In this document: piece after piece, positions 2,945-52,181 of the stretch
Layout: each line of letters starts with the position of its first letter
Numbering within the stretch: the stretch's first letter is position 1
Source of the DNA: a virus
Length of the DNA stretch: 52,914 nt
Direction: 5' to 3' (one strand)
IMG/VR virus record: IMGVR_UViG_3300009506_000044
Coordinates: 1 to 52,914 of that record
Position numbers and translations under genes: made by a program
Notes under the pieces: generated by a model
What the model saw: the letters and a program-made list of their open reading frames with translations, nothing else
The model's database searches: none
What the model was told of the DNA's origin: nothing

Positions 2945-3059
2945 AATAATGTACACCTAGTTTTTAATGTGTCGTCACCATATAATGATTAGAGAAAATT
3001 TAGATATATAGATAAACAATTATGAATCACTTTACCACTAGCATGCCAGTAACAAAAAG

Positions 3060-3262
3060 TCGGGTGTCTGGTATGCGGGGCCAGTTACGAGGCCTAAAGC
3101 TGAGAAGGATCGCAGGTGGTGTCAACGTAAACCCTGCGGACGCTCGGCAAGCTCGTTATTCGAGGCACCTCCCACACGGGAGCATCACACGCCACCCGCA
3201 CCGTTTTTTGCGGTCGATCTTCAGTGCTGTTAAAAGCGCTGTTGATCGACTGCAAGTAGCGG
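3060..3262 (+). ncRNA. Candidate structured RNA upstream of CRISPR array (possible tracrRNA)
   Basis: This GC-richer island lies in an otherwise AT-rich non-coding stretch and holds several hairpins. The strongest has arms 3210-3228 and 3235-3253: 17 pairs with a symmetric UU/UU internal loop and a GUUAAA loop. A second hairpin is CTCCC-ACAC-GGGAG at about 3170-3184. Just after it comes ATCACAC (about 3184-3190), complementary to GTGTGAT of the repeat, a short possible anti-repeat. Placement next to the array and a small Cas12-like nuclease suggests a tracrRNA, but seven complementary bases is weak support. Whether the + strand is transcribed is inferred. A 104-residue frame crosses this stretch but lacks a ribosome binding site. 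Confidence 0.4.
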
Positions 3263-3299
3263 CATTTTTGCATGTTGTTATGTATATGCCATTTGTGTT

Positions 3300-3347
3300 T
3301 TGTTCTATATGTTGTGATTTTTATGGGACCAATTAATATATATTGGA
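3300..3347 (+). promoter_or_regulatory. AT-rich leader of the CRISPR array
   Basis: The 48 bases before the first repeat are strongly AT-rich (for example AATTAATATATATTGG), as CRISPR leaders usually are. A weak promoter can be read as TTGTGA followed 18-19 bases later by ATATAT. The array is oriented rightwards because the last repeat at the other end is degenerate. Confidence 0.4.
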
Positions 3348-3579
3348 GTCCAAGACGAACTATAGTGTGATGGTAACCTGATGAGTAATGAAGAAATCGT
3401 TGAACAGAATTTAGTCCAAGATGAACTATAGTGTGATGGTAACCCCCAACAAACTGCCTGTGTGTGATCAAGGCCAGCCAAGTCCAAGACGAACTATAGT
3501 GTGATGGTAACTATACTGAAGACGATTACATGGAAATACATAGTGTTCCGTCCAAGATGAACTATAGTGTGATTTGATG
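3348..3579 (+). CRISPR. CRISPR mini-array, four repeats and three spacers
   Basis: Three 30-base repeats start at 3348, 3414 and 3482. They begin GTCCAAGA and end GTGTGATGGTAAC, and are identical except for a C/T at base 10. A fourth copy starts at 3550, matches for the first 24 bases, then loses the GGTAAC end, as expected of a leader-distal terminal repeat. Spacers are 36 (3378-3413), 38 (3444-3481) and 38 bases (3512-3549), all unrelated to one another. Repeats contain the 8-base palindrome ACTATAGT. The effector gene starts 12 bases after the last repeat. Spacer origin cannot be told without a search. No adaptation genes (cas1, cas2) are in the window. Confidence 0.9.
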
Positions 3580-3590
3580 GAAAGAGTAAA

Positions 3591-4895
3591 TTGAAGTGCA
3601 TTAAATTCAGAATAATAAAGGATCGTGAGTTTCCTCGGCTGTTTACCCTGCTTGACAAGTATTCTTACGCGATTAGCAGGGTTAAAAACCTCGGAATGAG
3701 CAAGTTGTTCGTGCAGCATCATACCGAAATTATTCCTTTTTTAGATTCCGAGAAAGATAAAAATTTGCGAAAGGTGTTTCTCAGGGATCGTAAAAATGCG
3801 ATATCAAGGGATATATATGCAGACGCTGGAAATCTATACCCGTGGATGGTTTCTCATATTAAAGAGATGGCCGCGAAAGAGGTATGTGACAAATTCAAAT
3901 CGGACTGCAAGGAGGTGTGCTACTCGCTTAAAAAGTCTCTCGCATCATTTCGTCGGGATGGTTCTTTTTCTATGAGGTCGCGCAATTGCAAGTTTGTCCG
4001 CGTCGCGGACGATATTTTCCTTGAGACGAATCTGTTGTCAAAATCAACAAAGGCGCTGTCTGAGGTATGCGAAAAACCAAATAAAGACGAGGAATTTCCA
4101 AAAAAATTCAAACTTTTGTTGGCAACGCGAAACTTGAAAAATGGCCATCGTCAGGACTTAAAACGCATATTGTCAGGTGAATCAAAATTCGGTTCTCCTC
4201 GTTTCGTCAAGTCTAAAAACGGATACGATTTGATTGTACCGTTCGAACAACAAAAGGCGGAGGCGCAAACAGGCCTAACGATTGGTATAGACCTTGGTGT
4301 TAAATGCGCGTTTTATGGCGCGTCTGTTGACTCTTGGAAGCGCATCAAGCCTGAAGACACACATGAAATATACGCTAAAGCGATGCAATTCAAGAAGCGG
4401 CGCAAACAATATCAAAAGCAAGCAAAAGTTTCAAATCGAAGTGGACGTGGTAGGCGCCATGTGTTGAGACCGTTAGAAAAACTTAGCACATCCGAACGTT
4501 ATTTTAGAGAGACGAAGTACAAGCAATGGGTGCGAATGATCATTGATTTTTGCTTAAATTATGGATTTTCGGTAATCGTCTTGGAAGACCTTAATAATCT
4601 AAAAAAAGACAACGCCTTAATTGCTAAATGGGCGCCGTTTAAGTTTCAAGAGTTGTTGATTTTAAAGGCATCTGAGTTCGGAATAGATGTTTTAGTGATA
4701 AATCCTGCGGATTCCTCCAGGCGTTGCTCATGGTGTGGATATACAGCGGCAGAAAACCGTGTTTCGCGTGATTGGTTTCTATGTAAGCAATGCGGAAAAA
4801 AGGCCGATGCAGACCACAATGCCGCAAGAAATTTGAGTTCGCCGCTTTTTTATCAGGGAAGAATGTCTTCTGGTGTTTGCGAGGAAATATTCTAG
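3591..4895 (+). CDS. Hypercompact Cas12/TnpB-like RuvC nuclease
   Basis: A probable RNA-guided DNA endonuclease of 434 residues. The C-terminal half carries a full RuvC site: IGIDLG with D234, VLEDLNN with E332, and DADHNAARN with D408. A zinc-ribbon (C379, C382, C398, C401; CSWCGY and CKQCGK) is inserted before the last Asp, as in TnpB and Cas12f-type proteins. The N-terminal 220 residues are lysine-rich and helical and do not resemble standard TnpB openings. TTG at 3591 is the only possible start near the top of the frame and has GGAAAG 7 bases upstream. It sits directly behind a CRISPR array, and no tnpA transposase or transposon ends are seen. This favours a type V (V-F/V-U-like) effector over a transposon TnpB. 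Subtype is unassigned. Confidence 0.85.
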   Translation: MKCIKFRIIKDREFPRLFTLLDKYSYAISRVKNLGMSKLFVQHHTEIIPFLDSEKDKNLRKVFLRDRKNAISRDIYADAGNLYPWMVSHIKEMAAKEVCDKFKSDCKEVCYSLKKSLASFRRDGSFSMRSRNCKFVRVADDIFLETNLLSKSTKALSEVCEKPNKDEEFPKKFKLLLATRNLKNGHRQDLKRILSGESKFGSPRFVKSKNGYDLIVPFEQQKAEAQTGLTIGIDLGVKCAFYGASVDSWKRIKPEDTHEIYAKAMQFKKRRKQYQKQAKVSNRSGRGRRHVLRPLEKLSTSERYFRETKYKQWVRMIIDFCLNYGFSVIVLEDLNNLKKDNALIAKWAPFKFQELLILKASEFGIDVLVINPADSSRRCSWCGYTAAENRVSRDWFLCKQCGKKADADHNAARNLSSPLFYQGRMSSGVCEEIF

Positions 4896-9755: not shown

Positions 9756-9767
9756 CAGGGGATAACC

Positions 9768-10762: not shown

Positions 10763-10775
10763 GAGATAAGTAACT

Positions 10776-11192: not shown

Positions 11193-11201
11193 GAGGTAAT
11201 C

Positions 11202-11678
11202 ATGACTGCAACTTTTACCGGCACTTTCACGCTGAAACGTGTTCTCGCTGGTGCGAACACCAACGAGGCGTCGGCGCTCACGGCATCTATCAATGACCAG
11301 ATCGCGCGTGCTTATACGGCTGGCAGTGGCGCCGGAAACATCAACCTGATATCGACCGATCAGGTCACCCGCGCCGACGTCGGATCGTCTGATTACGATC
11401 TAGACGGAGGGGCCCTTACTGACATGTTCGGTACTGCCGTCACGTTTGCAACGATAAAATCGGTCTACGTTAAGAACCTCGGGTCCGTCAGTGAGGCCGA
11501 AGTCGGAGGGGATTTCCTGGGGATTACGGGAACCGTCAAGCTCCCGGCCGGCGGAGTGTTCTGGCTGGACATGGGCGCGACCGGCCTGCCGGTAACCGCG
11601 ACGACAAATGACGTGATCAGTGTCTCGGGTGTTACGGGTGTCGCCCATGAGATCGTAATCCAGGGGGTTTCAGCGTAA
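11202..11678 (+). CDS. Beta-rich structural protein of the tail module
   Basis: A 158-residue protein without a recognised family. It is beta-rich and small-residue-rich (Gly, Ala, Ser, Thr, Val), starts with ATFTGTFTLKRVLAGANTNE, and lies between the tube and chaperone genes with an AGGAGG site. The composition and position suggest a virion component, perhaps a tail decoration or second tube domain. Confidence 0.55.
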   Translation: MTATFTGTFTLKRVLAGANTNEASALTASINDQIARAYTAGSGAGNINLISTDQVTRADVGSSDYDLDGGALTDMFGTAVTFATIKSVYVKNLGSVSEAEVGGDFLGITGTVKLPAGGVFWLDMGATGLPVTATTNDVISVSGVTGVAHEIVIQGVSA

Positions 11679-12145
11679 TGAAGTTTTTCAAGGACGCCAA
11701 CAACCGCGAATGGATGATCAAAATCGATAACAACGCTATCAAGCGTATCGAGGCGATTACGGGAATTGAGCATTTCATTCCGAAGCTTGAAGATCCAAAT
11801 TTTTTCGAGATGTTCATTGGCGACCCCGTAATGATCTGCGACACCATCTATGCAATATGCAAGCCGCAGGCCGAAAAACAGAATATCAACGATGAGCAAT
11901 TCGGTGAGATTCTGGTGGGTGAGCCTATCGAGCACGCGCTGTATGCATTTATGGAGGCCCTGGTTGAATATTTCCCCCCGAAGAAGGCGCGTGTGCATGC
12001 GGAAAAATGGCGCCGCGCCTGCCAGATCGTGGAAACGGGCCTGGAAAAACAGTACCAGGCTCTGGTCAGCCCGGACCTGGAAGACCAGATCAACCAGGCG
12101 CTTTCTGGAGGCGCATCTACAAAATCGCAGGATATCTTGGGGTAG
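11678..12145 (+). CDS. Tail assembly chaperone (gpG-like)
   Basis: A 155-residue protein in the gpG position, just upstream of the tape measure. It opens MKFFKDANNREWMIKIDNNA and has a helical C-terminus (EQFGEILVGEPIEHALYAFM). Such chaperones coat the tape measure during tail assembly and usually have a frameshifted longer form. An open -1 frame continues past the TAG (see next entry). Confidence 0.7.
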   Translation: MKFFKDANNREWMIKIDNNAIKRIEAITGIEHFIPKLEDPNFFEMFIGDPVMICDTIYAICKPQAEKQNINDEQFGEILVGEPIEHALYAFMEALVEYFPPKKARVHAEKWRRACQIVETGLEKQYQALVSPDLEDQINQALSGGASTKSQDILG

Positions 12146-32235: not shown

Positions 32236-34428
32236 ATGTGCGATTATGAAAGTTTTTTGGAATCTAAGGTTATAAAGGCGCCATCGAGCGGTATAGACGT
32301 CACTCCAGACAATCCTGCTCTATACGATTTTCAACGCGCCATAACCGCGTGGGCGCTGAGAAAAGGCCGGGCTGCAATATTTGCTGACTGCGGTCTCGGA
32401 AAAACGATAATGCAGTTGTGCTGGGCGCGTGAAGTTCACCGGCACACCGATAGAGAAGTGTTGATACTGGCACCTCTCGCTGTTGCTGCTCAGACCGTCG
32501 AAGAGGGACGCAAGTTCGGCATAGAGGTTACATACCGCCGCAAAGGATCCGTTGGCGGAATAACGATAACTAACTACGAAATGCTAAAGAATTTCGACCC
32601 GGAATTATACTCCGGCATTGTCCTGGACGAAAGCTCTATCCTGAAAAGTTTCTCTGGTAAGATACGCAATTTCATCATAGACAGCTTCAAAATAACACCA
32701 TACAGGCTTGCATGCACTGCCACTCCGGCTCCTAACGATCTAATGGAACTCGCCAATCATGCAGAGTTCCTTGGAATCATGAGAAGGGAGGAAATGCTCT
32801 CCACATTTTTTTTCCATGATTCTGGAAATACCTCTAAATGGGTAATTAAGGGGCATGCTGAATCAGATTTTTGGAAATGGGTGTGCTCTTGGGCTGTCAT
32901 GCTGAATTATCCATCAGATATTGGATTCAACGCTTCTGGATTTGAGTTGCCAGAGCTGAGAATGCACGAGGAAATCGTTTCGGTTGAAGAATGGGGGAAC
33001 TACCTTTTCGCTATGGAAGCACAATCCTTGCAGGACCGCATAAAAGAACGGCGGCGCACGGTGGCCGCCAGGGTGGAAAAGGCAGCAGAAATATTATCGA
33101 GATTCAATGGCGATCCCGCCATTGTCTGGTGCAATTTGAATATGGAATCATCGGGAGTGAAAAAGCGCTCTGGATGTACCGAGATCGTTGGCAGCGAGAA
33201 GGCGGAAGTGAAAGCAAAAAAAATGCTCGACTTCTCAGCAGGAAAGATAAAAAAACTGGTCACTAAACCTAGCATTGCTGGGTTCGGAATGAACTGGCAG
33301 CATTGCAACAATGTAATTTTTTTGGGGCTGTCAGACAGTTACGAACAGTTTTATCAGGCGCTTAGAAGGTGCTGGAGATTCGGACAGAAAAAACCAGTCG
33401 ATGTCTATATCGTGATTGCTGAAACGGAGGGGGAAGTCCTTGCGAACATAAAGCGCAAGGAGCAACAGGCAAAAGAAATGCGACAGGAAATGGTGAAAAA
33501 CATGCAGGATATTACCAAGCGCGAACTAGGGCATAGCGCAGAGGACATAGAGGTTTACGATCCCGAATCGACATCTGGTAGCGGCTGGACTGTCCATAAC
33601 GGGGACTGCGTAGAGATAATGCGGACAATTGAATCAGAGGCTGTCGGGTATTCGATATTTTCGCCACCGTTTTTGAGCCTGTATAGTTACTCTGACAGCA
33701 ATCGAGACTTCGGAAATTCTAAGACGGATGGTGAATTCTACGAGCATTTTCGCTTTTTTGCGGACGAACTGTACCGTGTTATCATGCCTGGCCGCAATTT
33801 CTCTTTTCATGTGGCCAATGTTCCATGCGCAAAATGGCTACATGGCTATATCGGGCTGAGGGATTTTCGTGGAGAGTGTATCAGACTTTTCCAGGACGCA
33901 GGTTTCATATTTCACAGTGAGGTCTGTATTTGGAAAGATCCGGTTACTGCGATGCAGCGAACAAAGGCGCTCGGTCTTCTGTACAAGCAGCTCAAGAAGG
34001 ACAGCGCTATGTCTCGTCAGGGAATTCCTGATTACCTGATCACGATGAAGAAATGGGGCGATAACCCCGACGCAATCGAACAAAAGCCTGAAAACTTCCC
34101 GCTTTCCAAGTGGCAGAAGTACGCTAGTCCGGTATGGACAGATGTAAACCAGAGTAGAACACTGCAATACAGGAATGCCCGCGATGAAAAAGACGAAAAA
34201 CACATATGCCCTCTACAGTTAGATGTAATTGAACGAGGACTGGAATTGTGGAGCAGGCCTGGAGATTTGGTACTATCTCCGTTCGCTGGTATCGGTTCTG
34301 AAGGCTATGTGGCCGTGTCGATGGGACGCGAATTCGTCGGTATAGAACTGAAAAAATCATATTACCGTGTGGCATGTCAAAACTTGGTATCTGCGGAGAA
34401 CTGCTATCAACAGCAGTTTTTGTTTTAG
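32236..34428 (+). CDS. Helicase-DNA methyltransferase fusion
   Basis: A 730-residue fusion. The first half is an SF2/SNF2-type helicase: Walker A CGLGKT with K56, motif II LDESS (D131, E132), and motifs V-VI region FLGLSDSYEQFYQALRRCWR. The second half (from about residue 440) is a beta-class amino methyltransferase: SPPF at 476-479 as the catalytic motif and PFAGIGSEG (682-690) as the SAM-binding motif. Such proteins methylate adenine or N4-cytosine in phage DNA to evade restriction, with the helicase perhaps making the DNA accessible. A structured leader precedes it. Confidence 0.85.
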   Translation: MCDYESFLESKVIKAPSSGIDVTPDNPALYDFQRAITAWALRKGRAAIFADCGLGKTIMQLCWAREVHRHTDREVLILAPLAVAAQTVEEGRKFGIEVTYRRKGSVGGITITNYEMLKNFDPELYSGIVLDESSILKSFSGKIRNFIIDSFKITPYRLACTATPAPNDLMELANHAEFLGIMRREEMLSTFFFHDSGNTSKWVIKGHAESDFWKWVCSWAVMLNYPSDIGFNASGFELPELRMHEEIVSVEEWGNYLFAMEAQSLQDRIKERRRTVAARVEKAAEILSRFNGDPAIVWCNLNMESSGVKKRSGCTEIVGSEKAEVKAKKMLDFSAGKIKKLVTKPSIAGFGMNWQHCNNVIFLGLSDSYEQFYQALRRCWRFGQKKPVDVYIVIAETEGEVLANIKRKEQQAKEMRQEMVKNMQDITKRELGHSAEDIEVYDPESTSGSGWTVHNGDCVEIMRTIESEAVGYSIFSPPFLSLYSYSDSNRDFGNSKTDGEFYEHFRFFADELYRVIMPGRNFSFHVANVPCAKWLHGYIGLRDFRGECIRLFQDAGFIFHSEVCIWKDPVTAMQRTKALGLLYKQLKKDSAMSRQGIPDYLITMKKWGDNPDAIEQKPENFPLSKWQKYASPVWTDVNQSRTLQYRNARDEKDEKHICPLQLDVIERGLELWSRPGDLVLSPFAGIGSEGYVAVSMGREFVGIELKKSYYRVACQNLVSAENCYQQQFLF

Positions 34429-34436
34429 GGTGATGC

Positions 34437-35798
34437 ATGAAAATAGACATACCCATCTTCGACCTGAGACACCCAAAAAGTATCCCCGGTAGGAAAAACG
34501 TTGATATTATGCCGGGTGGAGAGGTCTACATTTCGAATCGATTTGGAGAGATCACGGTTAAGTATCTCTCCAGATCATCGGTTATAAGCCCAGAAGACAT
34601 GAAAACGTTCTGGGCTGTATTCAACCTTACCAAGTGCGCTGAAAAAAAAGGTGAATACTACAGGATACCCATAAGAGAGGTTGTTGCCGTAAGAGGACTA
34701 AAGCCGAAAGGTGATATTTTTAAAAGGATAAGGCAATCTCTCATAAAATTGAGATTCGTAACGCTTTCCTCTAACAGGGAAGTCTGGACAGAGCTTGGAA
34801 AGCGTGAACAGTTTTCTCTTAACGGAATGATATCCGATATCATCTTCGATATTACACACCTTTTCATGGGTGGACAAAAGGAATATTTTGACATTTCTTT
34901 TGGTGCCATTTACAGAGAAGCCATTTTGCATCCAGAGAAGAGAGTTGCCATACCTGGGCAGATTTTGAAATTATCAGGCATGGATTTTAATCTGGCAGTA
35001 TTTCTGGCCGGGCAATCCCTTAAAGAAGAGAAGAAACATTTTAATACAATGGATCTTCTAACAGAATCTCTTTTCCATCACAGCGAGACAGCCAGGCATC
35101 AACCTTGGAAGTCTAAAAGGATATACAACAGCCTAGAAAGATTAAAGGTCAAAAAAATAATAAAGGGTTTCAAAAAAACGAAAAACAATGTTGTTTTGAT
35201 CACCTTTTTTACAGGGAAAAAACCCGTGACCTTGAAGTACGAAACCCGTGACCTTGAAGTACGAACCCGTGACCTTGAAGTACGAACCCGTGACCTTGAA
35301 GTACGGAGCGATCACGAGCGGTCAATCATACCAACGACTTGTGAAGGCAAAAATCCGTCTAACTCTTTATCTAACTCCTTCCTTCCTAAAGAAGGAAGCT
35401 TGAAGGAAGGAAGGAAGGAAAAGAGAGAGTTGTTGTCTGAATTCAACTTGTACCCTCCGATTTTGGAAAAAGCTCTTGAATCGGATTTCACAGATCTTGT
35501 TAGTCTTATTTGCTATTCGAGACATCACTCACCAGACAATCCTGCAAAATTAATCGCATACCGAATACAGCACAATCTTCCTGTTACTGACCACGAATTG
35601 AAGTCCATCCAAGATATGCATGCCGAGAAGAAAGCGGCAAACTACACCCGCCTCAAAAAGAAACTTGCGATGTCAAGGATGAACAATGGTGGATTGTCCT
35701 GGAAAGGGCAACCGGTCAAACGCATATCGGACGCTGGAATTACAACGGACGACGGTCTTTTTTTCTGGGGGGACATTCGAACGGAGGACCTTGCATGA
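34437..35798 (+). CDS. Plasmid-type replication initiator protein
   Basis: A 453-residue protein with two winged-helix units, as in RepA/TrfA/Rep_3 initiators: an N-terminal unit with YISNRFGEITVKYLS, DMKTFWAVFNLTKC and IRQSLIKLRFVTLS, and a second around residues 140-260. Initiators of this kind bind iterons and recruit DnaB. The gene itself carries four 21-22-base repeats at 35222-35306. Stop overlaps the DnaB start by four bases, consistent with an initiator-helicase pair. Confidence 0.75.
   Translation: MKIDIPIFDLRHPKSIPGRKNVDIMPGGEVYISNRFGEITVKYLSRSSVISPEDMKTFWAVFNLTKCAEKKGEYYRIPIREVVAVRGLKPKGDIFKRIRQSLIKLRFVTLSSNREVWTELGKREQFSLNGMISDIIFDITHLFMGGQKEYFDISFGAIYREAILHPEKRVAIPGQILKLSGMDFNLAVFLAGQSLKEEKKHFNTMDLLTESLFHHSETARHQPWKSKRIYNSLERLKVKKIIKGFKKTKNNVVLITFFTGKKPVTLKYETRDLEVRTRDLEVRTRDLEVRSDHERSIIPTTCEGKNPSNSLSNSFLPKEGSLKEGRKEKRELLSEFNLYPPILEKALESDFTDLVSLICYSRHHSPDNPAKLIAYRIQHNLPVTDHELKSIQDMHAEKKAANYTRLKKKLAMSRMNNGGLSWKGQPVKRISDAGITTDDGLFFWGDIRTEDLA
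35222..35306 (+). repeat. Four iteron-like direct repeats inside the initiator gene
   Basis: Repeats start at 35222, 35244, 35265 and 35286; the shared core is ACCCGTGACCTTGAAGTACG. The first step is 22 bases, the others 21, so copy 1 is read in another frame (KPVTLKYE) than copies 2-4 (TRDLEVR). DNA conserved across a frame change points to a DNA-level function, probably the replication origin. A GGAA/CCTT-rich stretch (about 35379-35425) follows. Confidence 0.75.
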
Positions 35799-37075
35799 AC
35801 GATAACGAATACGCCGTTTTGGGGTCAATTCTGAAGAACCCCACGGCAGATATTTCTTCTCTTACAGACAAGGATTTCCCAAGCAAAGACGGTCGTCTGG
35901 TATGGCAGGCCATCGCGGCAATGGATAGAGCAGGAAAGCCCATCGATGATTTGGTGCTGTTGCGAGATTATATCCGTAGTCACGGCAACGGCACGTCACT
36001 TGAGGCCCAGACGTGGGTGGTAGAAGCGATCACCTCAATACACGCCGGTGCGTGTTATGAGGATTACATCCGAATTTTGAAAAACGATTCGCTTACCAGG
36101 GCAATCGTCACGCTATCACGGGAAATCCAAGCAGCGGAAAAAGGCGGCACGAAGGGGAAAGACCTCCTCGATCTGGTCGAACGGTCGGTATCTCAACTGG
36201 CACTTGAACCTACCGGTCGCAAATCCTCACACATAAGCGTCGTCCTTAGAGACATGTTTGACAGCGTCGACAAGGAGAAGGGATATCCGACAGGGTTTCA
36301 CGCCATCGACGACATGATAACCGGCCTGGCTCCCATGCAACTGGTAATAATTGCGGGCCGCCCGAGCATGGGGAAGACGTCCTTCGCCCTGAATGTCGTT
36401 GAAAACCTTGCGATGATCCACGGTGTTCCGGTGATGGTGTTCTCGCTGGAGATGTCCCAAAAACAGGTCGGCATGGTGATGGCCTGTAGTCGTGCCGGGA
36501 TCTCCGTGAAACGGTTCCGGCGGCAGGATATCGATGAAAACGAGTACTCTCTGGCATCTACGGCATGCGGTGAACTATACAATGCCCCGATCACTATTTG
36601 CGATGACCCGGTGAGTCTGTCGGATATCAGGCGGCAGGTGCGCGGATGGTGCCGCGACCATGATGGCGGCGTTGTGCTGATAGACTACCTGCAACTTATC
36701 CGACCGGATAGCGGACGTCGTGATAACCGGACGCAGGAAATAGGCAGGATTTCCCGTGGGCTCAAGGGCCTGGCGAAACAGTTCGAGATGCCCGTTATAG
36801 CCCTATCGCAGCTAAACCGCAGCGTGGAGAGTCGCGATAATCACCGGCCGCGTATGAGTGACCTGCGTGATTCCGGGGAAGTCGAGCAGGATGCCGACGT
36901 GATCATGATGCTATACCGTGACGAATATTACAATTCGGAAACGGATTACCCAGGAACCGCAGAGGTCATCGTGGCCAAGCAGCGGGTCGGTGACACCGGG
37001 TCAATAAGGCTCGGATTTGCGAAAGAGTGTATGCGATTCGAGAATCCGGCAGTCCATTGCGCGAGGATAGACTGA
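35795..37075 (+). CDS. dnaB: Replicative DNA helicase (DnaB family)
   Basis: A 426-residue hexameric helicase. Residues 1-100 form the N-terminal helical domain (NDNEYAVLGSILKNPTADIS). The RecA-type core has Walker A GRPSMGKTS with K194, Walker B VVLIDYLQL, and ALSQLNRSVESR with MSDLRDSGEVEQDAD, the standard DnaB signatures. It unwinds DNA at the fork, loaded by the initiator encoded just upstream. ATG overlaps the initiator stop. Confidence 0.92.
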   Translation: MNDNEYAVLGSILKNPTADISSLTDKDFPSKDGRLVWQAIAAMDRAGKPIDDLVLLRDYIRSHGNGTSLEAQTWVVEAITSIHAGACYEDYIRILKNDSLTRAIVTLSREIQAAEKGGTKGKDLLDLVERSVSQLALEPTGRKSSHISVVLRDMFDSVDKEKGYPTGFHAIDDMITGLAPMQLVIIAGRPSMGKTSFALNVVENLAMIHGVPVMVFSLEMSQKQVGMVMACSRAGISVKRFRRQDIDENEYSLASTACGELYNAPITICDDPVSLSDIRRQVRGWCRDHDGGVVLIDYLQLIRPDSGRRDNRTQEIGRISRGLKGLAKQFEMPVIALSQLNRSVESRDNHRPRMSDLRDSGEVEQDADVIMMLYRDEYYNSETDYPGTAEVIVAKQRVGDTGSIRLGFAKECMRFENPAVHCARID

Positions 37076-37076
37076 G

Positions 37077-37361
37077 ATGACGCCGATACAGGAGATAATA
37101 CCTACGGTGATGGAGCGCGTCAACACACGCTCCGTCATCTGGCGTCTGCTGGTGATCCACAAGCGGATCGCGGCGGGCGGATACCCGAACGCTAACACGC
37201 TGGCGCGTGATCTGGAGTACAGCCCACGGACGATCCAGCGCGACATCGAGTGGGCCAGGGACATGCTCGGGGCGCCGGTGCGGTACGACCAGTGGCGGCG
37301 CGGTTACTACTACGACAACCCCAGATGGCTGGAGGGAGTATTATGCACGCTACACACTTGA
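37077..37361 (+). CDS. wHTH protein resembling the N-terminus of WYL regulators
   Basis: A 94-residue protein. The pattern LLVIHKRIAAGGYPNANTLA then RTIQRDIEWARDMLGAPVRY and RRGYYYDNP matches the DNA-binding head of WYL-type transcription factors, without the WYL ligand domain. WYL proteins often regulate CRISPR loci. It overlaps the DnaB end nearly and the csf1 start by 19 bases, so it is co-translated with the csf genes. Role as a regulator of the module is inference. Confidence 0.6.
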   Translation: MTPIQEIIPTVMERVNTRSVIWRLLVIHKRIAAGGYPNANTLARDLEYSPRTIQRDIEWARDMLGAPVRYDQWRRGYYYDNPRWLEGVLCTLHT

Positions 37362-38089
37362 TCGGACGTCATCTCAAAACGACCGGCGCGGCGGACATGC
37401 CGGAACGGTGTTGCCTTTGTGAATCGGAAGGCATCCAGGGGTTCCGCCGCAAGCAGGTCATCGCGTCCGGGTTCATGGACGTCGGCTACCTGCGTCCGAC
37501 GGATTGGATCTGCAGGTACTGCGCCGCGTGCCTCGGGTATCAGCAGGGCCGCACCGGCTTGGTGCGGAATTTCTCCTTCGTGGCGGGGGAAAACGCGCTG
37601 CAGTTTTTGAAGCGTGAGGAGATTTGGCACGTCATGACCGATCCGCCGGAACCGCCTTTCGTCCTGGGGGTAACGTACTCCCACAAAAAACACATCTCGT
37701 TCAAGGCGGCCGTGAATCTCAGCCGCACGCATTTCTCCGCATCGACGGAGGCCGGACATGTCCAGGTGAACCCGGACGGCGATGCCACGCTGAAAGGCAC
37801 TATGCAGCGGTGGTACACGATCTGCAAGCCGACAAAGACAGAACCGACGTGGTTCACGAAGGCGCACGTACTGCAAGGCTGCGACAATTTCAAGCGCATC
37901 GAGGAATACGGCACGGACCAGTATTTCGCAGACGATGCGATTATCCGCCCGTATCGGCACACTGCTCTCCTGGAGCTGTATGCCTATGCGCTCAATAAGG
38001 GACCGGTTCCGGAGCAGGCCCCGGAACCGGAACCAGAGGGAAAAACAGAATTTTCGACACGCAAAAACGGCCAGATGGCCATGTTTTAG
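37343..38089 (+). CDS. csf1: Csf1-like type IV CRISPR large-subunit protein
   Basis: A 248-residue protein with the Csf1 layout: two metal-binding clusters (C23-C24-x-C26 and C57-x2-C60, C63) and the linking motif RRKQVIASGFMDVGYLRPTD, then a beta-rich middle (SFKAAVNLSRTHFSASTE) and a Pro/Glu tail. Csf1 is the type IV analogue of the large subunit. ATG 37343 has GGAGGGA 6 bases upstream; the frame is open earlier but overlaps the HTH gene. Csf2 and Csf3 homologues follow directly. Assignment rests on this context as much as on sequence. Confidence 0.78.
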   Translation: MHATHLIGRHLKTTGAADMPERCCLCESEGIQGFRRKQVIASGFMDVGYLRPTDWICRYCAACLGYQQGRTGLVRNFSFVAGENALQFLKREEIWHVMTDPPEPPFVLGVTYSHKKHISFKAAVNLSRTHFSASTEAGHVQVNPDGDATLKGTMQRWYTICKPTKTEPTWFTKAHVLQGCDNFKRIEEYGTDQYFADDAIIRPYRHTALLELYAYALNKGPVPEQAPEPEPEGKTEFSTRKNGQMAMF

Positions 38090-38098
38090 GGAGATTTT

Positions 38099-39310
38099 AT
38101 GATCAAGATTGAGTACACTTTTCGGACCAAAGGACCGTTACACACGGGGTCGGACACCAATGCCGGGACGCTGCGGAGTTTGCGTCGGCAGAAATGTATC
38201 CTGGCCGACCCGGTGCAGTACGAAACGAAATTGACCGAACAATCCAGGCGGGACGCCGTGTGCAATATCGCCCTGGCGGTGTGGTTCGCTATCCCAAAGG
38301 ACGGGATCAAGGGCAAGCGGATGATGGGGATCTGGGACGAATTCGCCAACAAACTGACCGCGGCGGCCAGGGCTTCCAACAAATACCAGTTTCTAGAAAA
38401 CATTTGCAGGTCCTGGGGCATCGAGTCGATCACCTACCCGGCGCTGTTGCGATCCATCGACGCCCTGTCGGATTGGGAGTTGCTGGATACCGTGCGCAAC
38501 GAATCCATGTACGTGGTCCTGAAGACTCGCGCCATGCGAGACGAATCGAAACAGGATGAGGTTGGCTGGGAAAAATACCTGACGGATCTGGAAGTCACCA
38601 CCACCGATCAGCGCCCGGTGGAACGCCTAGAAGACATGATTCCCTGTATCAGCGGAAATTCGTTCCGGGGACGCCTACGGCGCCTGGCAATGCACGATTT
38701 TTGTCAGCGCATCGGTCTGAAGAAAATGGATAAGCGGGTGTACCACACGCTGTTTACCGGCGGGTTCCTGGACCAGAGCACGCAGAATGAGGACTTCGAG
38801 AAGATGGAGAAGTTTGTCTCAATGTGTCCGATGCTGGGCGTTCTGGGCGCTGCCATCGGAAACATGACGATTGAGGGCGACCTGAAAATGGGATGGGCCT
38901 ATCCGTTCTGCCGGGAACGCGGCACCGGCCAGCAGTCGTACTGGAACTATATCGACACGGTATTCCAGACGCGCCACGACAGCTCTAAAACCGAAAAACA
39001 GATCGAGTTGACCGGAGACGACCAGACCCAACAGATGAAGTACGAGTATGAAGCGTTCGCGGATGGCACGCCGTTCGAGCACCGTATTGCCTGCGTCTCG
39101 ACGGATGAGTTGATCATCGCGGCGTTCTGGCACCTCATCAGCCTGTGGAAGGCAAATCCATACATTGGCGGGATGGGCGCCGTGGGCGCCGGAGAGTTGG
39201 TCCTGGATTTGAAAGAACCCGCGAAGTCGCTGTCGAAGCCGTACCTGAAGGCCATCATGGAGGATGGAGCAGAAGAAATGCGCGAGTTCTGGGGAACGGT
39301 GACGATATGA
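38099..39310 (+). CDS. csf2: Csf2-like Cas7-type RAMP protein
   Basis: A 403-residue Cas7-family backbone protein. It begins with the RAMP-type strand and loop (KIEYTFRTKGPLHTGSDTNA), has the conserved PCISGNSFRGRLRRLAM motif around residue 185, and the glycine-rich NPYIGGMGAVGAGEL at about 355. Csf2 copies polymerise along the guide RNA in type IV complexes. It starts 9 bases after csf1 and overlaps csf3 by four. No cas11 gene lies between csf1 and csf2, where IV-B systems usually have it. Confidence 0.88.
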   Translation: MIKIEYTFRTKGPLHTGSDTNAGTLRSLRRQKCILADPVQYETKLTEQSRRDAVCNIALAVWFAIPKDGIKGKRMMGIWDEFANKLTAAARASNKYQFLENICRSWGIESITYPALLRSIDALSDWELLDTVRNESMYVVLKTRAMRDESKQDEVGWEKYLTDLEVTTTDQRPVERLEDMIPCISGNSFRGRLRRLAMHDFCQRIGLKKMDKRVYHTLFTGGFLDQSTQNEDFEKMEKFVSMCPMLGVLGAAIGNMTIEGDLKMGWAYPFCRERGTGQQSYWNYIDTVFQTRHDSSKTEKQIELTGDDQTQQMKYEYEAFADGTPFEHRIACVSTDELIIAAFWHLISLWKANPYIGGMGAVGAGELVLDLKEPAKSLSKPYLKAIMEDGAEEMREFWGTVTI

Positions 39311-39975
39311 GATCATGGAAGCTGCACGTGCGTTTCTATTCGCCGTGCGTGTTTTACCACCGTCCGCTGTTGGATGCGCTGCTTTCATACGCGCTGGAGC
39401 GGAGACATCAGCCGTACCGCTGCATGTATATCGCCCCGAAATGGCGCAACCGTGATCCGGTAGGCATCCCGCATCTTCAGGATGTCGTGCAATGCTTCGA
39501 TGATATCCCGTTGACCACGCAGATGCGGGCGGTTGGACCGGAGTTGCCGTACCTGGATTCGTGGAAAAAACGGTTCCACTCGAAAGATTTTCGACTTATT
39601 CGCTGGGGACGAGGATCACACAAAATCAATACGGCCAGCGGGAAATACCGGTCGTACAATATGCCGCTGCCGGCGAAAACAATCAATGCGGCCTGGTTCG
39701 GATTCGTCGGAGACGGGCCTGCAGTATTGGATTTGATGCGGTCGCATCTGTTTGCCATCGGGAAAAAAGCGAGTGATGGTTTCGGCATCGTGGACGAATA
39801 CCGTCTCGAAGAGGCTGACCTGGACGCCGTTGACATCCTCGCGCTGCGGCCGGTGCCGTTGCGTGTGATCGCGCAGAAAAACCTGCCGCTGTCAGGCGAG
39901 GCAAAACAGGTGGCCTACAAGCCGCCATATTGGGATAATTGCAATGTTGAAGCATGCGTTTGTCCTGCGCTATAA
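39307..39975 (+). CDS. csf3: Csf3-like Cas5-type RAMP protein
   Basis: A 222-residue protein with the Cas5-like N-terminal ferredoxin fold (MRSWKLHVRFYSPCVFYHRP) and the glycine-rich loop AIGKKASDGFGIVDEY, plus RWGRGSHKINTASGKYRSY in the middle. Csf3 caps the 5' end of the guide in type IV complexes. The start was placed at ATG 39307, coupled to the csf2 stop. It overlaps the cysH-like gene by 32 bases. Confidence 0.85.
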   Translation: MRSWKLHVRFYSPCVFYHRPLLDALLSYALERRHQPYRCMYIAPKWRNRDPVGIPHLQDVVQCFDDIPLTTQMRAVGPELPYLDSWKKRFHSKDFRLIRWGRGSHKINTASGKYRSYNMPLPAKTINAAWFGFVGDGPAVLDLMRSHLFAIGKKASDGFGIVDEYRLEEADLDAVDILALRPVPLRVIAQKNLPLSGEAKQVAYKPPYWDNCNVEACVCPAL

Positions 39976-40657
39976 GAGCAGGGCGTTCCAGCAGAAAATC
40001 GAGAAAGCCGAGCGCCAGATTGCGGCAGCGTTCGAGGCTCACTTCGGATGGCACGTTGCGTTTTCCGGCGGGAAAGACTCCACGGTGGTGTTGGATCTGG
40101 TACGCCAGTACAAGCCTGACATCACGGCGATATGGTCTGACGACGAATGGTGGCTTCCGGAGACGGGAGAATACATGGACCGGATGAGAAACGCAGGGGT
40201 GAACGTCCACCAGATCCAGACGCGGGCGACGCATGCCGAGTGGTTCAGCACGAACCAGGGCGCCGAGTGGTCAGGCGTACCAGAGTACGCCGCTTCGATC
40301 GGATCACGTGGATGCTTCCTGGGGCTGCGGGCGCAGGAAAACGGATACCGCCGTAGGTATCTCCGCCGGTATGGACTGTTACACTACGCGAAATGTAACC
40401 AGCAGTGGCAGTGCAACCCTATCGGGTGGTGGAAATTCGATGACGTCTGGGCGTATATCCACGGGCGCGAGCTGGATTACAACCGCGCTTACGATCGCCT
40501 GGCGGAAATCGGCATTGATGTCCACCACCAGCGGATTGGACCACTGGCATGCGAGCGGGCCGTCGGATATGGTCAGCTTGCAATACTCAAAATGGGATGG
40601 CCGGAACTGTTTTCACGGTTCGCAGCGGCACATCCGGAGGCAAACCAATATGTTTAG
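39944..40657 (+). CDS. cysH: CysH-like PAPS reductase-family protein of type IV-B loci
   Basis: A 237-residue protein of the PP-loop family: AFSGGKDSTVVLDL (SGGKDS at 41-46, phosphate binding), then ITAIWSDDEWW and a C-terminal RIGPLACERAVGYGQL. Similar proteins activate sulfur by adenylation; the CysH-like gene is a marker of type IV-B loci, and its task there is unknown. Independent phage CysH genes also exist, but the overlap with csf3 argues for the CRISPR-like unit. Confidence 0.85.
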   Translation: MLKHAFVLRYKSRAFQQKIEKAERQIAAAFEAHFGWHVAFSGGKDSTVVLDLVRQYKPDITAIWSDDEWWLPETGEYMDRMRNAGVNVHQIQTRATHAEWFSTNQGAEWSGVPEYAASIGSRGCFLGLRAQENGYRRRYLRRYGLLHYAKCNQQWQCNPIGWWKFDDVWAYIHGRELDYNRAYDRLAEIGIDVHHQRIGPLACERAVGYGQLAILKMGWPELFSRFAAAHPEANQYV

Positions 40658-41462: not shown

Positions 41463-41730
41463 GCGTGACGAAGAACTGGCGGCGTTCGACCACTGGCTAG
41501 CGGGATACATGCGCGAGGTGCAGGGGCCGGCCACGTTCGCGGTGGCTCAGATGCGGGAAGCCTGGCTCGCAGCGCGGGAACATTGCGATGATGCGCTCGC
41601 CGAGTGGATCGCGAAGGCCCTGACGCGCGCTCATTTCAGGGGATCGATGGTGCTGTCCGGCGTCTACGAGGATGCCAAGGAGAATTACATGCGTGTCGTG
41701 CGTGAGGCGATGCGGGAACGGGAACACTGA
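41455..41730 (+). CDS. Small helical protein, unknown
   Basis: A 91-residue acidic helical protein (AFDHWLAGYMREVQGPATFA). No family recognised. GGAGG at 41444-41448 precedes the GTG. Confidence 0.5.
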   Translation: MSERDEELAAFDHWLAGYMREVQGPATFAVAQMREAWLAAREHCDDALAEWIAKALTRAHFRGSMVLSGVYEDAKENYMRVVREAMREREH

Positions 41731-41735
41731 CAACA

Positions 41736-41812
41736 GTGTACCTCCGCCCGCTGGGGAACCGGTCCCCGGCGGGCATCCAAACGGGGGTACACGCAACAAA
41801 CGGGGGTACACG
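41736..41812 (+). promoter_or_regulatory. Possible RNA switch before the pentapeptide gene
   Basis: GTGTACCTCC (41736-41745) can pair with either of two GGGGGTACAC copies, 41783-41792 or 41802-41811. The copies belong to a 15-base direct repeat (41779-41793, 41798-41812). The second copy contains the ribosome site, and a strong GCCCGC..GCGGGC hairpin (about 41746-41775) lies between. Alternative pairing could open or close the start. Confidence 0.45.
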
Positions 41813-42169
41813 ATGGATTTAGCGTTGAAATTGCGGCACGACGTAGCCGCATGGAACATCTGGCGGGAGCAGTTCCCCCAGGTGCAGATCGACCTGGCGG
41901 GCGCGAACCTGGAGAGCGCGTACCTGGCGGGCGCTGACCTGGAGAGCGCTGACCTGCGGTGCGCGAACCTGGAAAGCGCTGACCTGGCGGGCGCGTACCT
42001 GGAGAGCGCTGACCTGCGGGGCGCTGACCTGCGGGGCGCGAATCTGCGGGGCGCGTCCCTGTGGGGCGCGTCCCTGGCGGGCGCCATTTTATGCGACGCG
42101 AATCTGGACGGTGCGATAGTGTCGTACCGGGGAAAATGCGTGCGGATCGTTTTCGAGGAATCACGTTAA
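41813..42169 (+). CDS. Pentapeptide repeat protein
   Basis: A 118-residue protein. Residues 25-105 are made of A(D/N)LxS/G repeats (LAGANLESAYLAGADLESAD) that form a right-handed quadrilateral beta-helix. Members such as Qnr and McbG mimic DNA and block gyrase; others are of unknown role. The first 25 residues are helical and non-repeat. DNA of the repeats is GC-rich. Confidence 0.75.
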   Translation: MDLALKLRHDVAAWNIWREQFPQVQIDLAGANLESAYLAGADLESADLRCANLESADLAGAYLESADLRGADLRGANLRGASLWGASLAGAILCDANLDGAIVSYRGKCVRIVFEESR

Positions 42170-48310: not shown

Positions 48311-48504
48311 AATATGCAAGGTTCAAATCGAAAATATCGGCAATGCTGATGCGCAATTTTTTTGGTCGCCGCGTATATCTTTGGCCATCTTATTGGTTTA
48401 TCAGATTCGGTTTTCGTGTACCGTGGGATACCCAAAAAAAATGGTCAGCTGCGGCTGAGTGCCAAAAGGCATATTATGATGCGATTGGGAGTAATGCAGA
48501 CTGA
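48307..48504 (+). CDS. Small basic protein, unknown
   Basis: A 65-residue basic protein (RFKSKISAMLMRNFFGRRVY), coupled to the previous gene. No family recognised. Confidence 0.45.
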   Translation: MKYARFKSKISAMLMRNFFGRRVYLWPSYWFIRFGFRVPWDTQKKWSAAAECQKAYYDAIGSNAD

Positions 48505-49355
48505 TGACAAAACCAACCATAAGCGCGGCCATGATCGCGCGCAATGAGGAGCCGTACATATTCGACTGCCTGCAATCGATTGCAGAGGTAGCGGACGAAA
48601 TCGTCCTGGTGGATACCGGCAGCACCGACCGCACCGCAGAGATGGCAGCGGACCTGGGGGCGTCGGTATACCATTTCGAGTGGGATAACGATTATGCCGC
48701 GGCGCGTGATGAGTCGTTGCGGCACGTCACCGGTGACTGGATTTTCCAGATTGATCCGGACGAACGGCTGCGCCCTGCGTCTGTGCCGATTCTGCTGGAG
48801 GCCGTCAAAAAGACGGACCTCCTGCATTTCAATATTTCCGTACACAACCAGGGGAAACCTGATCCGGAGCCGGATGAAATTCCGCGATTGTTCCGCCGTG
48901 TCCCCGGCATGCACTATACGAGGCCGTACCACGAAACGGTGTGCCCGTTTTTCGAGAGGTATCTGAGCGAAAATCCTGGTTGGGTGCGGGGGTTCGTTGA
49001 GGGGATCGTCCTGGACCACGTCGGACATGCGACGCGTAGCCAGGATGAGATGACACAGAAAACGCTGAGAGCGATATACATTATGGAGCGTTGGCTACAG
49101 AAAAACCCCGACGATCTGTACATCGCCCAAAAATTGGTGGTGTCGTACGCGATGATACAGCGCACTCACCCGATGGTGATGCGCGATATCCGTAGCAACC
49201 AGGGAAATATTCTGCTGAACGTGATGGGGCGACGCCAGGAGGCGTGGGCCGCGTATGCTGGGGCGCTAACCTGGGATATTGAATATCGAAGGCAACTGCA
49301 AGAACTGGAGAAAAAACGTGGACATCGTGATACCATGCTACCGGCCTGGCAATGA
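48504..49355 (+). CDS. Family 2 glycosyltransferase
   Basis: A 283-residue GT-A-type enzyme: ISAAMIARNEEPYIFDCLQS, then VDTGSTDRTAEMA (nucleotide binding) and FQIDPDERL with the DxD-like metal site. The middle matches lipopolysaccharide-type GT2 enzymes (YTRPYHETVC, VLDHVGHATR). It would transfer a sugar to DNA, protein or an envelope glycan. The next two genes belong to the same sugar-modification group. Its end overlaps the fusion gene start by 38 bases. Confidence 0.8.
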   Translation: MTKPTISAAMIARNEEPYIFDCLQSIAEVADEIVLVDTGSTDRTAEMAADLGASVYHFEWDNDYAAARDESLRHVTGDWIFQIDPDERLRPASVPILLEAVKKTDLLHFNISVHNQGKPDPEPDEIPRLFRRVPGMHYTRPYHETVCPFFERYLSENPGWVRGFVEGIVLDHVGHATRSQDEMTQKTLRAIYIMERWLQKNPDDLYIAQKLVVSYAMIQRTHPMVMRDIRSNQGNILLNVMGRRQEAWAAYAGALTWDIEYRRQLQELEKKRGHRDTMLPAWQ

Positions 49356-50988
49356 CCTGTCGAGGCTGCTGGCGGAAATCGTCCAGAAAACAGAGCAACC
49401 ATATCGGCTGCATCTGATCGCACATCGCGATAGCGCGGCAGTCAATCGTAATCTGGGTTTGCGGTGTAGCAATGGCGATATCGTGATCATGCTGGACGAT
49501 GATATTGAGAGTTTGCCGCTCTATTGGAATCGTATTTTGAGGATTCTGCTCGACGAGGACCAGAGCGTTTTGGCCGTATCGGCGCGGCTACTGCAAAAAA
49601 ACGGCGAGCCGGGGAAAAACACTGCCAACAATACGGACGTCAACCGTGATTATGTCGAGGTGAGCATGATCCCGACGGCGTGTTGCGCCTTCAGGGCGCC
49701 AAAAAACGGCCTGAAATTTGACGAAAACTTTAAAGTGGCCGGGTGGGAAGATACCGATTTTTTCACTGCCATGAAGGCCGAAAATCCGCAGGGCAAATTC
49801 GTTATAGACAATCGGTGCCAGGTGGTACACCGCAACGAGGAAAAGGGAGGCGGCGGTGCCGGGAATTTGTATAACCGTGACGTTTTCATGCACAAATGGT
49901 ACTCTCCGTCTCGGTTCAATAATCTCGCCGGAATAACGAAACGTGGGTGCATTGACGTTGGTCATCCGTGTAACATAGACTGCAAAATGTGCTATCACCG
50001 GCATGAGGACAGGTCTAAGCGGCGTTTTCTTCCGAAACAGGAAATCATGGCGCGGATGTTGCGAGACAAGGAACAGCTTGATCTGGAATGCATCGATTTT
50101 ACCGGAGGTGAGCCGACACTGCACCCGGACATGCCAGAAATCGTCGCATACGGCCGTCAGATCGGACTGCCGGTGTGCATAATATCGCACGGGCAGTGGC
50201 GCAATATGGAGCGGATGCGAGAGATTTTCGATGCCGGGCCGCTGGAGTTTCTCATGTCGATTCACGGTGTAGCAGAGGACCACGACGCACTGGTCAATCC
50301 AGGCGCGTATGAGCATATCATGCGGTCTATCGATATGCTGCAAGACGCCGACGCCGGTATCCCTTGGCGCGCAAACTGTGTAGTTACAAGGCAGAACCAC
50401 AAAAATCTCGACACCTACGCGATAGAACTCATAAACATGGCGTATCCGCCTGATAACGTTAATTTTATTGTGTTCAACCCTTTTGCTGGTTGGTCACAAA
50501 TGAAGGACATCGATTGCCAAGAAAAGCACTCGATTTTGGCTCCAAATATTGCAAGGGCAATAAATATTCTAAGCTCTGTTGCCATATGGTGCAATGTTAG
50601 GTATTTCCCTATGTGCCAGTTGCCGGGGCAGGAGAAACATGTTACGTGTTTCCCGCAAATCGTCTACGATCCGCTGGAGTGGGACGTGCGGTCATATTGC
50701 AATCTAAAACCGGAAGTGATCCAAGATTGCTACGATATCGGCCGCCGTGCAGGCGTGTGGGGTGAGACAGATCGCCATATTTTTTTCAATACGTGGTCGA
50801 TTCACAATTCGCATAATCTGTACCGCAAGCCGCCACAGTGCGTAAAATGCAGGAATTTCTTGATATGCGACGGCCTTGCGGTGCAATACCGTGACCGGTA
50901 TGGGGCCGGCGAGTTGCGTCCGCAGGATGGTGATTTGATCAGAGATCCAATATACTACCGCAGAGGTACACCGGGGGTGCAATCGTGA
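49318..50988 (+). CDS. GT2 glycosyltransferase-radical SAM fusion
   Basis: A 556-residue two-domain enzyme. Residues 1-205 are a GT2 glycosyltransferase (VDIVIPCYRPGNDLSRLLAE, DDD at 60-62, VAGWEDTDFF). Residues about 210-430 are a radical SAM domain: the CX3CX2C cluster C218, C222, C225 (PCNIDCKMCYH), then FTGGEPTLHPDMPEI. A C-terminal Cys cluster (CVKCRNFLICDG) resembles SPASM and may hold a second iron-sulfur cluster. The reaction cannot be told; sugar rearrangement or a modified nucleotide or peptide are options. GTG 49318 has GGAG 8 bases upstream. Confidence 0.82.
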   Translation: MDIVIPCYRPGNDLSRLLAEIVQKTEQPYRLHLIAHRDSAAVNRNLGLRCSNGDIVIMLDDDIESLPLYWNRILRILLDEDQSVLAVSARLLQKNGEPGKNTANNTDVNRDYVEVSMIPTACCAFRAPKNGLKFDENFKVAGWEDTDFFTAMKAENPQGKFVIDNRCQVVHRNEEKGGGGAGNLYNRDVFMHKWYSPSRFNNLAGITKRGCIDVGHPCNIDCKMCYHRHEDRSKRRFLPKQEIMARMLRDKEQLDLECIDFTGGEPTLHPDMPEIVAYGRQIGLPVCIISHGQWRNMERMREIFDAGPLEFLMSIHGVAEDHDALVNPGAYEHIMRSIDMLQDADAGIPWRANCVVTRQNHKNLDTYAIELINMAYPPDNVNFIVFNPFAGWSQMKDIDCQEKHSILAPNIARAINILSSVAIWCNVRYFPMCQLPGQEKHVTCFPQIVYDPLEWDVRSYCNLKPEVIQDCYDIGRRAGVWGETDRHIFFNTWSIHNSHNLYRKPPQCVKCRNFLICDGLAVQYRDRYGAGELRPQDGDLIRDPIYYRRGTPGVQS

Positions 50989-52181
50989 AAATTCTTCTGG
51001 GGCCGGGCCTGCATGACCCGAAGGGTAATGAGGCGTTCCTGGTGGCGGCGATGAAGCGGCATGCAAACGTGCGCACGTTCGATGCGCACGGTATTCACCA
51101 GCAGCCGGACGATTGGACGCCGGATGCGGTTATCGTCCGCGACGCGGAATATTATCCGATAATGCCGGGGATAGAAAATGTGGAATGCCCGATAATCGGA
51201 TTGGTCGGTGATTACAACCTGACACTGCCTCGCATGCTGCCGATTATGGGGATGTTCGACCATATTTTTTGTGATCTGCGAGGCGTTGAGCTGTTTTCGA
51301 AGCTGGGGCACCGCAATGTCGATTATTTTTGCCTGTACGGGTACGATCCGGGCCTGCACCGCGATTACGGCATGCCGAAAAATAATGACGTCGTATTCGT
51401 CGGAAATCTCAATTTTGCGGTCCAGCAGGACCGGGCGCGTTATCTGCACGACCTGCTGAAGCTGCGAGATCGGTACAAAATCGTGATAGCGTCGAATGTC
51501 TATGGCGAGGACTATGCGCGCCTGTTGAATTCTGCGCGAGTCGTGGCAAATTTTCCGGTGCGCGGTGAGCTTAACATGCGTTTTTTTGAGGCATACGGCT
51601 GCGGGGCGGTGTGTATGCAGCCTCTGAGCCAGGAGTTGATAGATTCTGGGTTTGATGACTATGAGGATTATACGCCTATCAAAGATGGTGATTGCGAATC
51701 CGGATTGAGATATGCGATTCGGTATTCTCGCAGCGATGCCAGCCGCGAGAAATTCGAGGAATTCACCTATGACCGCCAGGCGAAAGAGTTGATATCGAAT
51801 ATCGATGCCCTGCTGCCGACACTGGCCCCGAAGGCGCGGAAATTTCGCATTATGCCGGACGTGGAAAAAAACCGTCGCTGGGCGCAGTATCACGCGCCAT
51901 CGCATGATACACCACCGTGGGATAATCGTCTTTCCCTATTCGATCCGCGTTTAGTACGCTACCAGAAAGATATCGTGGATAACGTCGGTGACATCCCGAA
52001 TTTCAATTTCGATCAGTGGGCCTGGTGGATTGATCTTTTGCTGGCAAACGGGTATAATAATGCAGCGCAAGAGTTTATGGCAGAGAAGGAAGATATGCTA
52101 CGTTGCTTCGCTGGATTCGGGGCGATAAAAGAGAAGCTGCGAAAACGATTGAATGTTGAGGCTTATGGTTTTTGCCTTTAA
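50985..52181 (+). CDS. CgeB-like glycosyltransferase
   Basis: A 398-residue GT-B type protein. KILLGPGLHDPKGNEAFLVA and VVFVGNLNFAVQQDRARYLH, then NSARVVANFPVRGELNMRFF and EAYGCGAVCMQPLS, fit the family of CgeB/DUF3880-like family 1 glycosyltransferases. The last 100 residues are helical. It overlaps the fusion gene by four bases, so all three sugar-related genes are co-translated. Confidence 0.7.
   Translation: MKILLGPGLHDPKGNEAFLVAAMKRHANVRTFDAHGIHQQPDDWTPDAVIVRDAEYYPIMPGIENVECPIIGLVGDYNLTLPRMLPIMGMFDHIFCDLRGVELFSKLGHRNVDYFCLYGYDPGLHRDYGMPKNNDVVFVGNLNFAVQQDRARYLHDLLKLRDRYKIVIASNVYGEDYARLLNSARVVANFPVRGELNMRFFEAYGCGAVCMQPLSQELIDSGFDDYEDYTPIKDGDCESGLRYAIRYSRSDASREKFEEFTYDRQAKELISNIDALLPTLAPKARKFRIMPDVEKNRRWAQYHAPSHDTPPWDNRLSLFDPRLVRYQKDIVDNVGDIPNFNFDQWAWWIDLLLANGYNNAAQEFMAEKEDMLRCFAGFGAIKEKLRKRLNVEAYGFCL

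Follow-up and report, generated by a model that had tools for sequence, protein, structure and literature searches.

Cas11 nested in Cas7: a module of type IV-B gene content in a tailed-phage genome

Type IV-B systems and the phage-borne locus

The type IV-B CRISPR (clustered regularly interspaced short palindromic repeats) systems of plasmids (Mycobacterium sp. JS623, PDB 7jhy; Thermococcus, Natrinema, Xylanimonas) comprise Csf1, Cas11, Csf2, Csf3 and usually CysH. In the solved ribonucleoprotein (RNP), a helical Csf2 backbone is intertwined with Cas11 seated at the Csf2-Csf2 interfaces, and the recombinant complex was assembled mostly on heterogeneous RNA of regular length that was not CRISPR RNA (crRNA) (PMC7937560). 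Type IV systems are also known in phages and prophages (PMC11656645), and virus-borne IV-B was already described in Fuxivirus, a virus of Bathyarchaeia (PMC10848311). The module considered here is carried by the IMG/VR virus record IMGVR_UViG_3300009506_000044, whose 52,914 nucleotides constitute the window analysed. By gene content, it is a type IV-B module with a new architecture, Cas11 being nested in Cas7 (Csf2).

The window resembles the plasmid systems by its Csf1, Cas11, Csf2, Csf3 and CysH, and the Csf2 and Cas11 folds match. However, cas11 is a gene of its own directly upstream of csf2 on the plasmids, whereas it is nested in csf2 in the window and its kin, which are viral. The Fuxivirus system is likewise virus-borne and associated with CysH, but it belongs to an archaeal virus and includes a two-repeat mini-array; in the part of that publication drawn on here, Cas11 is treated as a protein of its own and no Cas7-Cas11 nesting is described. 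Other viral IV-B loci (L066-L069) share csf1, csf2, csf3 and cysH with the window but keep cas11 separate, between csf1 and csf2. The Cas7-11 effectors of types III-E and III-I also join Cas7 and Cas11 in one polypeptide. These string several Cas7 and one Cas11 together as a single effector, whereas the Csf2 of the window, with a single Cas7 core and a single Cas11 in 403 amino acids instead of a multi-Cas7 layout, is presumably a repeating protomer, Csf1 and Csf3 being separate. No description of a type IV Cas7 with Cas11 nested in it was found in the literature searched, which included the 2025 classification; the main type IV survey and many subscription papers lay outside its scope. As far as this literature goes, the nesting is a new architecture within the known type IV-B.

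A four-gene module in a tailed-phage genome

The 52.9-kb record is the genome of a tailed phage, with terminase, portal, head protease, major head and tape-measure genes. The module lies on the plus strand and begins with csf1 (37343..38089), which encodes a Cas8-like large subunit of 248 amino acids (PADLOC Csf1_0_IV, 1e-21; TIGR03114, 2.4e-13). It continues with csf2 (38099..39310), encoding the Cas7 that carries the nested Cas11 (403 amino acids; PADLOC Csf2_0_IV, 1.6e-43), and csf3 (39307..39975), encoding a Cas5 of 222 amino acids (PADLOC Csf3_0_IV, 9.3e-27; TIGR03116, 5.2e-12). It ends with a cysH-like PP-loop gene, the usual IV-B partner (39944..40657; 237 amino acids), which matches the phosphoadenosine phosphosulfate (PAPS) reductase domain PF01507 (1.2e-16). 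The three successive junctions are of +9, -4 and -32 bases, and the csf2-csf3 overlap is ATGA.

All the type IV-B proteins, namely Csf1, Csf2, Csf3, Cas11 (as a domain) and a CysH-like protein, are thus encoded in the window. A first-pass annotation made from the sequence alone had already recognized csf1, csf2, csf3 and cysH, and proposed a type IV-B-like module on a phage. Both proposals hold, since PADLOC, NCBIfam and Pfam support each gene far above chance and the complete IV-B protein set, Cas11 included, stands in a genome with tailed-phage structural genes. Furthermore, the best profiles and folds are those of type IV Csf1, Csf2 and Csf3 rather than of other RAMP families. The same annotation reported no array, cas6, dinG or cas11. 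Indeed, no cas6, cas1 or dinG was found in the whole record and no CRISPR array at the IV-B locus, but an array does exist 34 kb away, beside a Cas12f gene (3348-3580), and profiles, alignment and fold match reveal Cas11 as a domain of Csf2.

A Cas11 domain inserted in Csf2

A complete Cas11 domain occupies residues ~33-178 of Csf2, where it interrupts Cas7, as established by profiles, alignment, split relatives and model. The insert (residues 33-178, helical core about 47-162; 38195..38632, plus strand) is recognized by PADLOC Cas11_1_IV (6.4e-14), and two type IV Cas11 models (6e-14 and 2e-7) match residues 56-153. Cas11 profiles also match the Csf2 of three related loci (L008, L011 and L013). 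In the alignment, the insert, located between the first Csf2 strand and the conserved P-x-x-SGN-S-x-RG helix, reaches 136-176 residues in the window and its kin versus 7 in the unenlarged Csf2 of L018-L021.

Relatives in which the two proteins are split point in the same direction. A profile made only from the inserts matches a stand-alone open reading frame (ORF) overlapping csf2 on an Omnitrophota contig (L018, 921-1292; 1e-25), which PADLOC identifies as Cas11 (2e-22), and an ORF directly before csf2 on a Natrinema plasmid (2e-9). Plasmids of Thermococcus, Halomontanus, Actinarchaeum and Xylanimonas also carry an ORF of ~130-145 codons directly before csf2, the one from Thermococcus being a Cas11 according to PADLOC (7e-11). 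This insert-only profile found no second or stand-alone cas11 copy in the fused loci, the window included. The release of a separate Cas11 by internal translation was considered and ruled out: the Csf2 sequence continues past the insert, and Cas11 alone could not be released.

The AlphaFold2 monomer model of Csf2, obtained from 18 sequences (predicted local distance difference test, pLDDT, 84.6), consists of a Cas7 core and a helical bundle (47-162) carried by two long strands (30-45 and 168-182); the Cas11 bundle is therefore predicted to sit on a beta-hairpin stalk. The whole model resembles solved type IV Csf2 (Z 18.2 for IV-A; 16.2 for IV-B, 7jhy_a). When folded alone (pLDDT 83), the insert has only one clear match, 7jhy_g, the Cas11 of the solved IV-B complex (PDB 7jhy, chain g; Z 10.8, root-mean-square deviation 2.6 Å over 111 residues). 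It is scarcely credible that the insert is an unrelated helical domain and that Cas11 is truly missing: helical bundles do resemble many folds weakly, and Foldseek by itself ranks 7jhy_g weakly (E-value 0.4, probability 0.97), but two Cas11 profiles match the insert, stand-alone homologues adjoin csf2 in relatives and the row following 7jhy_g in the fold search falls to Z 4.3.

The catalytic aspartate of Csm3 sits in a loop. As Csf2 beyond the insert can be aligned with Csm3, starting at residue 36, the insert would be close to the position of this loop. An aspartate at position 19 of Csf2 is invariant across the fused clade; a similarly placed aspartate of IV-B Csf2 was judged badly positioned (PMC8175902).

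Distribution and origin of the fusion

Besides the window, scans of IMG/VR and of a species-level genome set revealed 13 distinct fused loci (38-63% identical). The fused architecture is thus present in 14 loci at the least, all of them viral or probably so. Of the 13, ten are on viral contigs (L004, L005, L006 and L008-L014, L007 being a near copy of L006) and three on contigs of metagenome-assembled genomes (L015-L017, of which L015 is incomplete). No match to Csf2 was found among sequenced phages (INPHARED). In a tree of 13 fused and 16 unfused Csf2 sequences built after removal of the insert, the fused ones form one group found in all bootstrap trees (support 100/100), which indicates that the rearrangement of Cas11 into Cas7 arose once. 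The ratios of nonsynonymous to synonymous substitutions (0.04-0.16 for the fused genes, 0.08-0.13 for the insert) indicate that these genes, insert included, are under purifying selection.

Unfused viral IV-B loci were also found (L066-L072). In L066-L069, the stand-alone ORF between csf1 and csf2 is recognized by a broader Cas11 profile (2e-26 to 5e-16); an ORF is also present there in L070-L072, and this profile does not label it. The Cas11 of L066 is 27-38% identical to the inserts and has a GIWDEF segment in common with that of the window.

In the relatives, csf1, csf2, csf3 and cysH stay clustered, but their order is permuted and their contexts differ: the modules are located behind structural genes, beside methylase genes or in front of unrelated genes.

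The CysH partner

The SxGKDS PP-loop motif (SGGKDS in the window) and an R-x-x-E pair are kept in all 14 aligned CysH proteins, and no cysteine is conserved across them. The CasCysH proteins of type IV-B also lack the catalytic cysteine (PMC8175902), and the CysH examined here has the same combination, a PP-loop kept without this residue. In profile searches, it matches PAPS reductases and CysD. Because the ATP-pyrophosphatase motif is kept and no cysteine is conserved, the most likely activity of CysH is to adenylate a substrate delivered by the complex, or to spend ATP on it in another way, and not to reduce sulfate.

Three fused loci (L013, L014 and L017) have Csf1-3 that are 82-92% identical while their CysH proteins are only 25-27% identical. 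Such a discrepancy indicates that the CysH partner has been exchanged between otherwise near-identical modules. Since it is swapped in this way, CysH is probably the variable, target-facing part of the module in a conflict whose other side is the host or a rival element, and its replacement points to an opponent that changes.

Other proteins related to CysH, or located in its place, were noticed. L010 encodes, inside the module, a second PAPS-reductase/DUF3440 protein (9999-11836) followed by a ParB-like gene, and haloarchaeal plasmids have similar PAPS-reductase/DUF3440 and ParB-like pairs close to their IV-B genes (L062; compare L063). In L011, the cysH slot is occupied by an ORF (9299-9958) that has an LDSGAF motif and a weak match to queuine transglycosylases (E 0.0067); neither Pfam nor PDB gave any match to it. 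Its motif and weak match suggest that it could possibly be another nucleic-acid-modifying partner.

Proposed mechanism and alternative explanations

By analogy with the solved IV-B complex, Csf2 protomers would polymerise along a short RNA. Each of them would supply its own Cas11, and the backbone and the inner filament would thus be made from one polypeptide in a 1:1 ratio, while Csf3 and Csf1 would cap the filament ends. CysH would act, at the expense of ATP, on what is held or bound by the RNP. The guide is unlikely to be made by the window phage itself; it would be taken from RNAs already present in the cell, and the module would serve in conflicts opposing it to the host or to rival elements. 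We consider this reading to be moderately well supported: a phage-borne IV-B system would use, in such conflicts, a Cas7-Cas11 filament that coats RNA, together with a CysH partner that consumes ATP and can be exchanged. The filament, its stoichiometry, the chemistry of CysH and the role in conflict are here inferred, the Csf2 model being that of a monomer.

Several observations weigh against this proposal. The NCBIfam scores of Csf1, Csf2 and Csf3 (50, 36 and 46 bits) miss the curated equivalog cut-offs (140, 130 and 140 bits); as the family assignment agrees while the scores are far under these cut-offs, the three proteins are best regarded as divergent family members. The solved IV-B complex has no density for Csf1 and Csf3. 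In the fused locus L011, no cysH can be recognised, and CysH is therefore not strictly required. Furthermore, judging from two fused loci, some members may produce guides of their own. One of them is L004, in which cysH is followed, ~1 kb downstream, by an 11-repeat array (10416-11106; also L002, 9522-10212), with a 32-nucleotide I-C-like repeat and spacers of 33-34 nucleotides; its contig also encodes protease- and portal-like proteins, both named by eye from the sequence. The other, L008, located on a 153-kb viral contig, has a cas6 gene directly upstream of csf1 and overlapping it (6683-7375; Cas6 profile, 2.6e-33).

Two alternatives concern the RNA held by the complex, and both are possible at best. 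According to the first, the Csf2-Cas11 filament would be a sponge that unselectively captures the crRNAs of the host, or other guides, and thereby protects the phage, CysH modifying or locking the captured RNA. This would agree with the heterogeneous RNA bound by the recombinant IV-B complex (PMC7937560), with the lack of an array and of cas6 in the window module and with the Cas11-Cas7 fusion, which could favour a rapid stoichiometric coating. However, it leaves unexplained the exchange of CysH while Csf1-3 remain constant, as well as the cas6 gene of L008 and the array of L004.

According to the second, crRNAs from phage or host arrays would programme the complex against rival elements or host genes, and CysH would be recruited to the target. 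The array of L004 and the cas6 gene of L008 are in favour of such a guided effector, as is the mini-array reported for the IV-B locus of the Bathyarchaeia virus (PMC10848311). However, most fused loci have neither array nor cas6, and the array of the window lies beside Cas12f, which it probably serves. No target of the L004 or window spacers was found within 6 mismatches in the loci collected, phages gave only chance-level matches, and one window spacer has no exact match in viral contigs. Furthermore, the L004 repeat recurs in unrelated viral contigs, whose ORF listings, which were not searched with profiles, include no obvious csf genes; the array of L004 may therefore merely use the I-C machinery of the host. 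The two possibilities, a guide RNA that is sponged and one that is used, have about equal weight.

A more speculative proposal, which we hold to be rather improbable, is that of a virus-specific IV-B branch in which a single-protein RNA-coating filament, programmed by cellular or phage crRNAs, would bring an exchangeable PP-loop partner (CysH, or possibly the transglycosylase-like protein of L011) to modify nucleic acid. If true, type IV-B would carry out RNA-guided chemical modification instead of cleavage.

Lastly, the first-pass annotation had suggested a role in phage replication or competition. The module does adjoin the DnaB helicase gene (35795-37075), which is followed by a small helix-turn-helix (HTH) gene, but this position was the sole basis of the suggestion; a role in replication or nucleotide metabolism is very unlikely, as the modules of relatives lie in other contexts with a permuted order and the lack of a conserved cysteine in CysH makes sulfate reduction unlikely.

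A Cas12f system in the same genome

Besides the IV-B module, the window carries on its plus strand a CRISPR mini-array (3348..3580) made of three 30-nucleotide repeats (GTCCAAGAYGAACTATAGTGTGATGGTAAC), where 0 are expected by chance, and a degenerate fourth one, with three spacers of about 36-39 nucleotides. This repeat has no exact match in the viral and genome contigs searched. The array precedes a gene encoding a Cas12f (type V-F) effector of 434 amino acids (3591..4895, plus strand; PADLOC Cas12f, 1.2e-74; PF07282, 4.8e-18), whose nearest solved relatives are the Cas12f 8j3r and 8j12 (about 1e-34). It keeps the RuvC motifs and the TNB domain, GIDLG, LEDL and the zinc/DADHNAARN region aligning to Cas12f structures. 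A strongly structured non-coding stretch located before the array (3050..3270, plus strand; fold z-score -5.5) is a possible trans-activating CRISPR RNA (tracrRNA); in a search for its anti-repeat, the best duplexes were no better than background and none was clear. The region 3050-4895 is best interpreted as a type V-F system carried by the phage, apparently separate from the IV-B module located 34 kb apart, and its mini-array probably serves Cas12f rather than this module.

The pairing of IV-B with a small type V system has a precedent, since a plasmid carrying IV-B, a V-B3 Cas12b3 and a mini-array was reported (PMC12669027, Extended Data Fig. 7). Unlike this plasmid, the window is a phage, and its type V effector is a Cas12f that keeps its catalytic motifs. 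The viral contig of L008 also bears a Cas12/TnpB-like gene (L038, 6263-7882, minus strand).

Other features of the window

The small HTH protein encoded upstream of the module (37077..37361, plus strand; PF08279, 2.4e-4, below cut-off; HTH part of PADLOC WYL, 5.9e-8), whose gene overlaps the start of csf1, is a possible regulator of the module. The ORF directly before dnaB (34437-35798) contains four 21-bp direct repeats (35221-35305), reminiscent of the origin iterons found inside a lambda-O-like initiator gene. Upstream, an N6/N4 DNA methyltransferase is fused to an SNF2-like helicase (32236-34428). Downstream of the module are encoded a pentapeptide-repeat protein with 15-bp DNA repeats (41672-42169) and, between flanking glycosyltransferase genes (48504-52181), a radical-SAM protein with some similarity to viperin profiles (pVip, 2.9e-15), which is fused to a GT2 domain.

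Significance for type IV-B systems

The nested form offers a compact new handle on the function of type IV-B systems. As the filament is reduced to one polypeptide, its expression, imaging and mutation should be easier. Modules that differ in CysH while their Csf1-3 are nearly the same amount to a natural experiment, which points to CysH as the part on which selection acts, and defined guide sources are available from the relatives that carry cas6 or an array. Furthermore, the presence of IV-B and Cas12f on one virus means that two CRISPR-derived systems can be studied together.

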